From Mucilaginibacter sp. JRF (GTDB lineage: Bacteria; Bacteroidota; Bacteroidia; Sphingobacteriales; Sphingobacteriaceae), in NCBI RefSeq assembly GCF_015223065.1, contig NZ_JADFBY010000011.1, forward strand, positions 62,001-126,000: a stretch of DNA of 64,000 nt, read 5' to 3'. The notes under the pieces were generated by a model that worked only from the letters and a program-made list of their open reading frames with translations, ran no database searches and was not told the origin of the DNA. Shown here one piece after another: positions 59,035 to 63,340 of the stretch. Both the position numbers and the translations under genes were made by a program. Position 1 is the stretch's first letter, and each line of letters opens with the position of its first letter.

Positions 59035-59637
59035 CTATGATTTTGACTGTTCAACACTGATCTTTAGTGTTTCTGAAAGACAGGGCTTGCCTTGCAGGGA
59101 AGCCAGGCGCTGGGTGCCGGTGAGCCCCTGATTTAACCAGGTCTTGATATCCCCGCGTTCCAATATGGCCGGCATCCGGTCATGGATTTCCGCCATCCGG
59201 CGATTCGGTGGCATGGTGATCATCATAAAGGTCGGCAGCAGGACATTAGTATCAACATCCATCCAAATATCCCAAAGACCTGCGATATAAAAAGGCTTAC
59301 CATCCTCGCGCTCGATCCGGTAAAGTTTTTCATGCTCCTTATTGTATTCCAAAAATGCCTGGATGCGGATCACGCAGTGTTTCCGCCCCAGGTGCCGGCG
59401 CCAAACGGTGGGTAAGTTTTCGATCCGGGCATGTTTGTGCTTATTATGGATCTTATCATCTTCCGGGGTTAAAAGGCCCCAGCGAAATTGCTGTACCTTA
59501 TCCGGCATCGCATCCGTAACGACCGGTAACATAGATCCGGGATTGCCCGAAATATTCGGTTTGGGCTTGAACTGGCGGCCGTCCCGGCCGGTGATCACAA
59601 TGTCTTTTTGTTCGCCAACAAATACTCTTCCACACAT
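59035..59637 (-). CDS. SRAP/HMCES-family protein (SOS response-associated peptidase)
   Basis: Shields abasic sites in single-stranded DNA by forming a thiazolidine cross-link through Cys2. I start it at ATG 59637 so that the protein begins MCGRVF with Cys2 exposed after Met removal; the frame allows an ATG two codons earlier, which would bury it. Other active-site parts: PGSMLPVVTDA, WGLLTPEDD, NLPTVWRRHLGRKHCVI, the FLEY Glu, and the His in AEIHDRMPAIL. 200 residues. Its promoter region carries a palindrome also found before the UmuD-like operon. Confidence 0.93.
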   Translation of the reverse strand: MCGRVFVGEQKDIVITGRDGRQFKPKPNISGNPGSMLPVVTDAMPDKVQQFRWGLLTPEDDKIHNKHKHARIENLPTVWRRHLGRKHCVIRIQAFLEYNKEHEKLYRIEREDGKPFYIAGLWDIWMDVDTNVLLPTFMMITMPPNRRMAEIHDRMPAILERGDIKTWLNQGLTGTQRLASLQGKPCLSETLKISVEQSKS

Positions 59638-59654: not shown

Positions 59655-59680
59655 CAAATTTACTAATTATTTTAGCAATT
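59655..59680 (-). promoter_or_regulatory. Candidate operator plus -7 box of the SRAP gene
   Basis: On the minus strand: TGCTAAAATAATTAG (palindrome core CTAA-N5-TTAG) followed at once by TAAATTTG, a match to the Bacteroidota -7 consensus TAnnTTTG, about 18 nt before the SRAP start. A near-identical arrangement stands at 61788-61813. Confidence 0.6.
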
Positions 59681-59862
59681 AATAAATTATCCTTCTAAAT
59701 AATTATGGCTTGCTGTTTTTAAATCCGGCAGAAATCTGTGACGTTCCTGATTAGGGTTTAATGGGTTAGTACATCGACTATAAGTGTATAAGAAATGTTT
59801 TCAGTAAATCATTTGAAAAACCATCTGCATTTGGTACTCCAATAATTTTCAAGTGTGGGCAT

Positions 59863-61122
59863 TCATTTTGCGATAACGATATCATTCCAGTTCGTGGTGT
59901 ATTGTTTACTCAGAAATTCCTGTTTCATTTTCCAGGTTTTTGTAAATCCTTCTGCGGCTATACACAGTGCACCGCGCCCATAACGGGCATTGATGTCATC
60001 CATGAGACTGCTAAGCGCCTGTTGCTTGCTGTTATCATAATTGCTGAACAGGTTATATTGCACTTCACCTGCCGGAATAATGCCAGTAGCGCGAACGCCT
60101 GTCTTGAGGTAGTTAAAACCGGGCTGCCAGATGGCCCGCAAAGCCTGCACACAGATCCGTGTCAGTTCCTGGGTACTATTAGTAGCGAACGGCACCTTTA
60201 CCGTGATGCTTGGGTAATGCTGGTCATGCGTCACATTATGTTTATTGGTTCGAAGGTAAATGGTCAGGGTCATCGCCATACTTTTTTGCTGTCTGAGTTT
60301 GACTGCCACCGTCGCCGCGTGCATCGCTGCGGCTTCCTCGATCTGGCCCAGTTCGGTCTGGTAAGTATTAAAGCTTTGGCTTGACTCGATGCCCTTGGAA
60401 CGATCGGCCACATCTCTGATCACATTGCAGGGTTTGCACCACAATTCCTGGTGCAAGCGCCAGCCCTGCACGGTCATGTGCTGACGCACAAGATCCGGTT
60501 TTAACCTGCGGAAATCCTCAGCGGTGGTCACGCCCAACTCTGTTAGCTTTTCATAGTATTGCCTTCCCACGCCCCAGACATCTTCGATTGGGAAAGTTCT
60601 GACCACCTCATCGATCTTGGTTTCCGTATCCAGTACCAGGAAGTTCCGCCCCATTTTTTTAGCGGATTTATTGGCCAGTTTGGCAAGGGCCATCGTAGGA
60701 CCTACGCCAATGGTGATCGAAAGGCCTGTGTCACGCATCACATTTCGGCTGATCATCGCCACGTGCTTTTCAAGATCTATCGCTTTGATATTACCAAGCG
60801 CAAGGAATGCTTCGTCGATGCTATACACCATCAGCATATAAGTATAACGAGCCAGGTTATTCATCATCCGGGCGCTCATGTCTGCGTAGAGCGCGTAATT
60901 ACTGCTGAAGATCACCGCATCATGTTCTTTCAGGGTTTTTCTTACCAGGAATTCCGCATCGCCCATTTTAAGTCCGATCGCTTTGGCCTCGTTGCTCCGG
61001 GCGATGACGCAGCCGTCATTATTGGACAGCACCACGACCACTTTGCCACGCAGGGACGGGTTAAACAGCGTTTCACAACTGACGTAACAGTTGTTGATGT
61101 CAACATGCGCAAACACGGCCAT
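59863..61122 (-). CDS. umuC: Y-family DNA polymerase, UmuC-type
   Basis: Translesion polymerase of 419 residues. Catalytic carboxylates Asp8 (AHVDINNCYVSCE) and Asp103-Glu104 (VYSIDEAFLALG) are present; also SIGV-like fingers SITIGVGPTMALAKLANKSA and the thumb KLTELGVTTAEDFRRLKPDL. Little-finger domain follows, and a C-terminal DUF4113 tail (GALCIAAEGFTKTWKMKQEF). YNLFSN near residue 355 may bind the sliding clamp. Overlaps the UmuD-like gene by 23 nt. Confidence 0.95.
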   Translation of the reverse strand: MAVFAHVDINNCYVSCETLFNPSLRGKVVVVLSNNDGCVIARSNEAKAIGLKMGDAEFLVRKTLKEHDAVIFSSNYALYADMSARMMNNLARYTYMLMVYSIDEAFLALGNIKAIDLEKHVAMISRNVMRDTGLSITIGVGPTMALAKLANKSAKKMGRNFLVLDTETKIDEVVRTFPIEDVWGVGRQYYEKLTELGVTTAEDFRRLKPDLVRQHMTVQGWRLHQELWCKPCNVIRDVADRSKGIESSQSFNTYQTELGQIEEAAAMHAATVAVKLRQQKSMAMTLTIYLRTNKHNVTHDQHYPSITVKVPFATNSTQELTRICVQALRAIWQPGFNYLKTGVRATGIIPAGEVQYNLFSNYDNSKQQALSSLMDDINARYGRGALCIAAEGFTKTWKMKQEFLSKQYTTNWNDIVIAK

Positions 61123-61537
61123 ACCTCCCTGTTTTTTGCTGTGGCTGTAAAAGCGGGTTCAGCGTCAGCATGACCACGCCCCAGCATTCCCATTTTTGTT
61201 GATCTTCAATGATAATACTGTCCGCCCGGGTATTTGCTTTCAAAACCAACCTGCTCTTTTCCGGGCAGTACTCTCTCACGTAAAAGTCGCCTTCATGATA
61301 AAAAACGACGATGCAACCGGCAACGGGTAGCAGGGATCGGTCAATGATCAGGATGTGGTCTTCCAGGATATGATAAGTGGTCATGGCTTCACTGCCCATA
61401 CGCATATAGTAGGTGTTATCCGGATCGATCACGATGATATCCGTTACATCGAGGGTCGGTTCTTCATGCGTCAGCATGGGTAGCCTAAACCCAAGTACAT
61501 CTCTTTTTGTCGCCTGCTTTTTGATCCTCAACATCAC
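61100..61537 (-). CDS. UmuD-like S24 protein, catalytic residues replaced
   Basis: 145 residues, LexA/UmuD fold. An ungapped match to E. coli UmuD can be laid over TYYMRMGSEAMTTYHILEDH with LIIDRS: the nucleophile Ser60 of GDSM is Ala51 here. The second segment VAGCIVVFYHEGDFYVREY also aligns without gaps and places Arg88 at the general-base Lys97. The Cys-Gly cleavage site and long N-terminal arm are missing. So it should not self-cleave and may serve as a ready UmuD'-like partner of UmuC. It overlaps UmuC and starts inside the stop of the small gene before it. Confidence 0.85.
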   Translation of the reverse strand: MMLRIKKQATKRDVLGFRLPMLTHEEPTLDVTDIIVIDPDNTYYMRMGSEAMTTYHILEDHILIIDRSLLPVAGCIVVFYHEGDFYVREYCPEKSRLVLKANTRADSIIIEDQQKWECWGVVMLTLNPLLQPQQKTGRYGRVCAC

Positions 61538-61752
61538 TTTTCCATTATTTTCTGTTCCGTTTCAATGTCATTCAAGGCTAACCGCAGACCTTCATTAATG
61601 CAGCTGTGCTGTTCAAACCTCCGTTTTAGCCCCGCGTAATGCTGATGCTCGAACATGCCCATCCTTGAGCGCATATCTTCCAGAAGCCCCATGGCTTCGC
61701 GAAGTATTTCTTCAGTCAATTTAACATCTGCCGGTATTTTCATCTGATCCAA
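61534..61752 (-). CDS. Small helical protein at the head of the umuDC-like operon
   Basis: 72 residues, almost wholly helical and charged (LTEEILREAMGLLEDMRSRM; FEQHSCINEGLRLALNDIET). No family recognised. Its stop overlaps the ATG of the UmuD-like gene (ATGA), and the operator-promoter region lies just upstream, so it is the first gene of the mutagenesis operon. Could be a regulator or assembly factor. Confidence 0.7.
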   Translation of the reverse strand: MDQMKIPADVKLTEEILREAMGLLEDMRSRMGMFEHQHYAGLKRRFEQHSCINEGLRLALNDIETEQKIMEK

Positions 61753-61763
61753 AAGAGAGATGT

Positions 61764-61813
61764 CAAAATTATTAAATACATTTTAAAATGCTAATATTTT
61801 TAGCATAAATTTG
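61764..61813. promoter_or_regulatory. Divergent promoter-operator of the mutagenesis cassette
   Basis: A perfect palindrome ATGCTAA-TATTT-TTAGCAT at 61788-61806. On the plus strand it runs straight into TAAATTTG (61806-61813), a -7 type box for the rightward genes; on the minus strand a second -7 type box TAATTTTG (61764-61771) serves the operon at 61752. One bound repressor could shut both. The same core stands before the SRAP gene. Confidence 0.6.
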
Positions 61814-61834: not shown

Positions 61835-61948
61835 ATGGGATATGAGGTTTTAACACGGGAAACAGGAGCGGTGATCCGGGAGGCGATATCCGGTCTTACC
61901 GTAGACGTTATGGAGCGAAGCAAAGTTCCCATGCCGCCTATTGTATGA
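61835..61948 (+). CDS. Short 37-residue protein, divergent from umuDC-like operon
   Basis: MGYEVLTRETGAVIREAISG, then LTVDVMERSKVPMPPIV. Begins 22 nt after the TAAATTTG box. Its stop overlaps the next start (ATGA), so it heads a small operon. No family recognised. Confidence 0.5.
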   Translation: MGYEVLTRETGAVIREAISGLTVDVMERSKVPMPPIV

Positions 61949-62160
61949 CAACCTTATATGGGATCAGAGGCGGATTTATACCGGAAAATGTCTTTTTATT
62001 CAATGCACCCAACGGAACAGCGCTTGAAACCCTAAAGAATGCCGTTGATTTTTATTTCCGCGACTTTTTAAAGACAGCGTTATATGTGAAAGAAGTTCCG
62101 CCGGATTCCAAGCTGTTCAGCGAAGAAGCGCTCAGGTTATATGGTAACAAAGAAAACTGA
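61945..62160 (+). CDS. Small hypothetical protein (71 residues)
   Basis: MTTLYGIRGGFIPENVFLFN start; soluble alpha/beta look (TALETLKNAVDFYFRDFLKT). Coupled to the 37-codon gene by ATGA overlap. No function recognised; shares the cassette promoter. Confidence 0.6.
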   Translation: MTTLYGIRGGFIPENVFLFNAPNGTALETLKNAVDFYFRDFLKTALYVKEVPPDSKLFSEEALRLYGNKEN

Positions 62161-62167
62161 ATGAACG

Positions 62168-62272
62168 ATGGAACAGTTAGCCCTATTTGCGCAGGCGGGA
62201 CAAAGTAAGGGCCTGCCTGAACATTTACTGGAATACCGGCATGCTTCAACTTGGTTTTGCCATATATTTTAA
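62168..62272 (+). pseudogene. AlkB-type dioxygenase, N-terminal fragment
   Basis: 34 codons: MEQLALFAQAGQSKGLPEHL then LEYRHASTWFC and stop. MEQLxLF...GLPxxLLEY is the usual start of Bacteroidota AlkB (2-oxoglutarate DNA-alkylation repair), after which homology ends abruptly. The rest of the enzyme (about 170 residues) is absent, so the operon end was cut off by recombination. Confidence 0.6.
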
Positions 62273-62644
62273 TGACTAAAGGTCAATCGTTAAAATAACG
62301 GCTGACATTCCAAATGGTAAATACGGTCAATAAAAATAAAATCAATAGCATAGGGAAGCCAGGTAGCATTAAACCACCACCAATATACGACTATAAATAC
62401 ACTTACGATTTCCTATACGAACTGTGCCTCTTCGTAAAAAGTAAAACCAGGTTTATAATAACCAGAACAGCAATCAATATCTCCATCACAATAATTGGTT
62501 AAAGGATGTTTAACGGAGACTTTTGGATATTTGTTGTGATATGGGTAATTAATTTAATCAGGCCATAATAAAAATAAGCCCTTGTCACTCGCTGATCAGG
62601 GCTTTCCTAATGTATAAACTTTGAAATTTTGTACTTAAAGCTCA
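62273..62644. other. AT-rich spacer
   Basis: 372 nt. An open frame at 62314-62502 (62 codons, plus) is low in complexity, has no recognisable homology and is probably not a gene. A hairpin with loop motif CACTCGCTG lies at 62576-62604. Confidence 0.4.
62576..62604. terminator. Hairpin with CACTCGCTG loop, copy 1
   Basis: Arms AAGCCCT and AGGGCTT, loop TGTCACTCGCTGATC. Lies 40 nt after the stop of the minus-strand XRE gene, so probably its terminator. Copy 2 at 62989 has the same loop core with different, still paired arms. Confidence 0.55.
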
Positions 62645-62920
62645 CTAACCGCAACGATCACAGCGTTGATCAGGTGCTGAGCCATGGTCAGTTTTCCTTC
62701 GCGCACTAAATGTATATGGAGTGCTATACATAATGACACTTACTTCATTTTCTGTTTGTTTATTCAATCGTTTGATTGTTATGTCGGTATTGCCTAATTC
62801 CATCCTAATATAAACCTTTTGAGAGATGGACATCTTAGCAGCCATGTATTCTTGTGAAAACTCAAGTGATAATCTGGCATTGCGAATATAATTCGCTACT
62901 TTTTTTTTATTGATAAACAT
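62645..62920 (-). CDS. Short XRE-type helix-turn-helix protein
   Basis: 91 residues. Residues 8-60 look like a Cro/C1 helix-turn-helix (VANYIRNARLSLEFSQEYMA, AKMSISQKVYIRMELGNTDI). The last ~30 residues are Arg-, Asp- and Cys-rich and unlike the family, so the frame may have shifted there. Upstream is another hairpin and a second XRE gene pointing away. Confidence 0.65.
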   Translation of the reverse strand: MFINKKKVANYIRNARLSLEFSQEYMAAKMSISQKVYIRMELGNTDITIKRLNKQTENEVSVIMYSTPYTFSARRKTDHGSAPDQRCDRCG

Positions 62921-63073: not shown

Positions 63074-63340
63074 ATGTTTGAACAACAATTAATTATATTT
63101 GGAGAAGTAACTATCCAAAATATGGCCGATGAAAGAGTGCATGGCGTGCTGACAAATATTAAACGAAGGAGAAAAGTTTTAGGTTATTCTTCAGATTATC
63201 TCGCCGGCTTGATTAACTTGTCAAGTAATGCTTATTATAAAATTGAAACAGGGAGAACACCTATCACCTTGGCGAATTTTTTAGCAATTGTCGAAGTCTT
63301 GAACACCAGCATAGATAAATTGATGCAACCTCCGCTATAA
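63074..63340 (+). CDS. XRE-family transcriptional regulator
   Basis: 88 residues, almost only a helix-turn-helix: VLTNIKRRRKVLGYSSDYLA, GLINLSSNAYYKIETGRTPI, then a third helix and LNTSIDKLMQPP. Start may be the ATG at 63074 or the one at 63122 (MADERVHGV). Such small regulators are typical at element borders. Divergent from the shorter XRE gene; targets unknown. Confidence 0.8.
   Translation: MFEQQLIIFGEVTIQNMADERVHGVLTNIKRRRKVLGYSSDYLAGLINLSSNAYYKIETGRTPITLANFLAIVEVLNTSIDKLMQPPL

Follow-up and report, generated by a model that had tools for sequence, protein, structure and literature searches.

The SRAP gene and the polymerase cassette

The window is a 64,000-nucleotide stretch of the Mucilaginibacter sp. 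JRF genome (contig NZ_JADFBY010000011.1, positions 62,001 to 126,000), and positions below are those of the window unless a genomic contig is named. Its minus strand carries the gene of a SOS response associated peptidase (SRAP) of the HMCES/YedK family (59035–59637; PF02586, E 3.9e-34). The targets of SRAP proteins are abasic sites in DNA, and control of SRAP by damage is of some practical interest for this reason.

The SRAP gene is neighbored on the same strand by a umuDC-like operon. It encodes a UmuC-like Y-family polymerase (59863–61122; Pfam PF00817, PF11799 and PF13438) and a UmuD-like S24 peptidase (61100–61537; PF00717, E 1.3e-9), and its first gene is small (61534–61740), has no Pfam match and has partial relatives in the loci L160, L161 and L182. 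The UmuC gene shares 95% identity with that of Mucilaginibacter myungsuensis and 92% with that of M. roseus. A Pfam search with the 145-residue UmuD returned only PF00717 and no DNA-binding domain.

On the plus strand lies a divergent gene without an assigned function (61836–62160), which is frameshifted, followed by a remnant of alkB (2OG-Fe(II) oxygenase; 62169–62273) recognizable by its first ~24 residues only. The divergent gene-alkB operon (61836–62273) has decayed in the window, while intact copies are present in several Mucilaginibacter relatives. Two small HTH_3 proteins are encoded nearby (62645–62920 and 63074–63340).

Palindromes and -7 boxes

The CTAA-N5-TTAG palindromes of the original prediction are present both in the sequence upstream of SRAP (TTGCTAAAATAATTAGTAAATTTGATCG, minus strand) and in that between umuDC and the divergent gene (ATGCTAATATTTTTAGCATAAATTTGTAA, plus strand). 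The SRAP-side site reads TGCTAAAATAATTAGTAAATTTG on the minus strand, with the predicted LexA-type operator TGCTAA-AATAA-TTAGTA at 59661–59677 and the -7 box TAAATTTG at 59662–59655, the TA of which doubles as the operator's outer TA. The umuDC-side site reads TGCTAATATTTTTAGCATAAATTTG on the plus strand. Its predicted LexA-type operator (61789–61805), which umuDC would share with the divergent gene, is a perfect palindrome of 6+6 bases, TGCTAA-N5-TTAGCA, so that the extent first given, TGCTAA-N5-TTAG, was too short. The agreement of 13 of 15 core bases claimed for the two sites is obtained only when the minus strand of the umuDC site is taken, and falls to 12 of 15 in the orientation that carries TAAATTTG.

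The palindrome was also said to touch or overlap the promoter box at both places. This holds for SRAP, but at umuDC the adjoining TAAATTTG (61806–61813, plus strand) faces away from the operon. Judged from its sequence context, this box belongs to the operon of the divergent gene and alkB, which is broken in the window: the register is identical in all five named relatives that have both the divergent gene and an adjacent alkB, and the exact arrangement TTAGYATAAATTTG occurs in these five, in L182 and in the window. The -7 box of umuDC itself is probably TAATTTTG (61771–61764, minus strand), a consensus match only, lying 19 bases downstream from the core of the operator.

In 22 SRAP promoters, the offset of TTTG behind TTAG is 1 in 12 cases and 4 in six, as compared with a mean of 1.4 and a maximum of 7 in 20,000 trials with shuffled downstream sequences; these promoters are related loci and the count is not one of independent events. 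The first two bases of the -7 box, TAnnTTTG, are supplied by TTAG in the offset-1 class and by the operator's outer TA in the offset-4 class. Offset 4 is found in 8 of the 22 gene-oriented sites in the genome of the window. The overlap would fit repression by covering of the -7 box. It is slightly more likely than not that operator and -7 element evolve together in Sphingobacteriaceae as a single unit, in which the LexA site is joined to the promoter box in either of two fixed registers (TAGYTTTG or outer-TA TAnnTTTG), and that the alkB operon shares the operator of umuDC.

Conservation and genome-wide counts

Within the window alone, CTAA-N5-TTAG occurs three times against 1.4 expected, and 14 of 100 shuffles reach three, which is not beyond chance; the third copy (28436) lies inside a 418-residue reading frame. 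Taken by itself this count would allow that two AT-rich promoters are alike by accident, and the case was therefore rested on counts in the whole genome. There the motif is far in excess of chance: we count 15 copies of the flanked form TRCTAA-N5-TTAGYA and one of its reversed control, and TGCTAA-N5-TTAGCA with up to one mismatch occurs 33 times against 11 for the control. Most other CTAA-N5-TTAG matches are within reading frames, lack the outer TR and YA bases and resemble background. In 61 genomes of the family the flanked form totals 385 against 204 for the control, the excess being concentrated in some genera and amounting to 15–16 versus 1–2 in Mucilaginibacter.

Upstream regions of orthologous genes were compared in named relatives from Mucilaginibacter, Pedobacter and Daejeonella, whose UmuC proteins are 73–95% identical, by an oriented motif scan, since not all loci are stored in the same orientation. 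The motif is present before umuD in 25 of 25 loci and before SRAP in 22 of 24, as the original prediction would have it, while eight control palindromes of the same base composition are found in none of the SRAP regions and in 0–2 of those of umuD. The two SRAP exceptions keep near-copies, TACCAAATAAATTAG and CTAA-N4-TTAG. This conservation, together with the 15-to-1 count in the genome, refutes chance similarity and leaves it a vanishingly small probability.

It could also be argued that the conserved sequence is part of the promoter only, a spacer with a -7 element, and contains no repressor site, and the fixed registers of overlap with the -7 box speak for this. However, umuD and lexA retain the motif upstream despite other positions of the -7 box and in both orientations. 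Many SRAP promoters have a second CTAA-N5-TTAG near the start codon, in eight loci 3–6 bases before it, and elsewhere this motif has been proven to act as an operator, according to the parts of the published study that were consulted (PMC8565304). A purely promoter role is thus extremely improbable.

The regulator

The genome contains four S24 genes. The one on contig 4 (92797–93567) encodes a protein of 257 residues with an HTH_3 domain (PF01381, E 4.8e-13) and an S24 domain (PF00717, E 1.2e-9). The Ala-Gly bond (A106-G107) and the Ser/Lys dyad (S143 and K182) of this LexA homologue are invariant in 12 orthologues, and its family was found in 71 of 72 good genomes of the bacterial family. CTAA-N5-TTAG stands directly before the lexA start codon in 30 of 30 fetched loci, in place in 29 and shifted in the remaining one only because the contig is short. 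A PDB sequence search with the homologue gave matches to the HTH domain only. The winged-helix domain of canonical LexA, PF01726, had no match in the genome, whereas a control search did recover it, for instance from E. coli and B. subtilis. From its sequence, the regulator is taken to be this HTH_3-S24 protein, encoded far from the cassette.

The original prediction had named XRE or LexA-type proteins as candidates. A local XRE- or UmuD-type regulator, as in the UmuDAb system of Acinetobacter, would draw on the two small HTH_3 proteins nearby and on the UmuD encoded in the cassette itself. However, this UmuD is ruled out as the regulator by the lack of a DNA-binding domain, the motif stands throughout the genome upstream of repair genes that are remote from the cassette, and it precedes lexA in all examined loci of the family, also in genomes that yielded no relative of the cassette UmuD. 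Local regulation is therefore very unlikely, and the distant HTH_3-S24 gene is preferred to the XRE candidate.

A second S24 protein (contig 2, 502500–502802; 234 residues) gave no HTH match in Pfam and lacks CTAA-N5-TTAG upstream of its gene, and could be a second, separate regulator.

The predicted regulon

As the original prediction anticipated, other repair genes carry the motif. Predicted operators lie near the starts of recA, the gene of the 257-residue LexA homologue, SRAP, two umuD genes (the second in another umuDC) and two dinB-type genes, one of which has a 2'-5' RNA ligase-like gene as its divergent neighbor. They are also found near the starts of a PA0069-type (SplB-like) radical SAM gene, a UDG-linked radical SAM gene, a DEDD/GIY-YIG exonuclease gene, dprA, rarA, tcmP, a UvrA-like gene (a name based on the N-terminal sequence alone), a RhuM-family gene and several further genes without an assigned function.

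Upstream of the RhuM-family gene the site is AGCTAA-N5-TTAGCA, at a distance of 54 bases (contig 5, 12463). At contig 7, 30084, a perfect TGCTAA-N5-TTAGCA is placed within a longer inverted repeat, AACAATTGCTAA...TTAGCAATTGTT, beside an uncharacterized gene of 201 residues.

The tcmP (three-Cys-motif partner) gene (contig 5, 54156) has its -7 box in register with the predicted LexA operator, and is followed by a gene that we take to resemble phage Gp37/Gp68. The two may form an SOS gene pair absent from the published CTAA-N5-TTAG regulon, which, in the consulted parts of that study, covers recA, umuDC, dinB, SplB, a UDG-linked gene, an exonuclease (COG0847), SRAP and the repressor itself (PMC8565304).

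Proposed mechanism

With a probability of about 0.95, the two palindromes serve as SOS boxes, the operators to which the non-canonical LexA of Bacteroidetes binds. The view that they are repressor sites of a DNA-damage regulon is upheld by the sites before repair genes, by the conservation before SRAP and umuD and by the identity of the motif with the published operator mapped by EMSA. We infer LexA binding, LexA cleavage and steric blocking of sigma in Mucilaginibacter sp. In the undamaged cell a LexA dimer would sit on CTAA-N5-TTAG, covering the -7 box of SRAP and of the divergent gene, such that sigma could not use these promoters. At umuDC the dimer would cover the region upstream of the -7 box and keep sigma off the promoter; since the operator is 19 bases upstream of the probable -7 box, this block would act through the -33 region and not through the -7 box. 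Upon DNA damage, RecA filaments would induce self-cleavage of LexA at the Ala-Gly bond, opening the promoters of SRAP, umuDC and other repair genes.

Comparison with known systems

CTAA-N5-TTAG upstream of umuD and dinB genes was described through comparative genomics by Sanchez-Osuna et al. (2021; PMC8565304). In the consulted parts of that paper, its regulator has a CI-like HTH_3 domain and an S24 peptidase and is called "non-canonical LexA"; electrophoretic mobility shift assays (EMSA) show that binding depends on both dyads and on the length of the spacer, and induction by mitomycin C was demonstrated by RT-qPCR, both binding and induction being reported for P. actiniarum, with WP_025606010.1 as its regulator (PMC8565304). 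The families listed with large CTAA-N5-TTAG regulons include the Sphingobacteriaceae; Flavobacteriaceae mainly have GGA-N5-TCC and Bacteroidales are described there as being without such regulators (PMC8565304). In our comparison, GGA-N5-TCC precedes umuC or umuD in 3 of 14 distant, mostly flavobacterial loci. The suggestion that the motif is the phylum's replacement for a LexA box is thus correct in that canonical LexA is absent and the motif is the operator of the Bacteroidetes LexA, but too broad, because the motif is not phylum-wide (PMC8565304). A search of the later literature found no further study of the CTAA-N5-TTAG regulon.

Compared with canonical LexA and the SOS box of E. coli and B. 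subtilis, the system shares an S24 repressor, Ala-Gly cleavage and SOS genes, but the PF01726 domain is missing from the Mucilaginibacter genome and the box is different. Acinetobacter UmuDAb/DdrR likewise places an error-prone polymerase cassette with UmuD under an S24 repressor; in Mucilaginibacter, however, UmuD has no DNA-binding domain and the repressor is a separate global gene.

The system is a member of the already known CTAA-N5-TTAG LexA regulon, which it resembles in motif, spacing, HTH_3 and S24 regulator, autoregulatory site and regulon genes, as far as these are set out in the consulted parts of the paper (PMC8565304). Nothing in existing knowledge is overturned: the raw sequence independently confirms the published LexA-box replacement in Bacteroidota (PMC8565304), the list of predicted regulon genes in Mucilaginibacter is extended, and an operator overlapping the -7 box offers a testable promoter architecture. 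The residual novelty is modest and architectural, namely the registers of operator and -7 box fusion and the shared divergent alkB operon. Relative to the same parts of that paper, the SRAP operator/-7 registers, the paired SRAP operators and the divergent gene-alkB operon on the umuDC operator are added here (PMC8565304).
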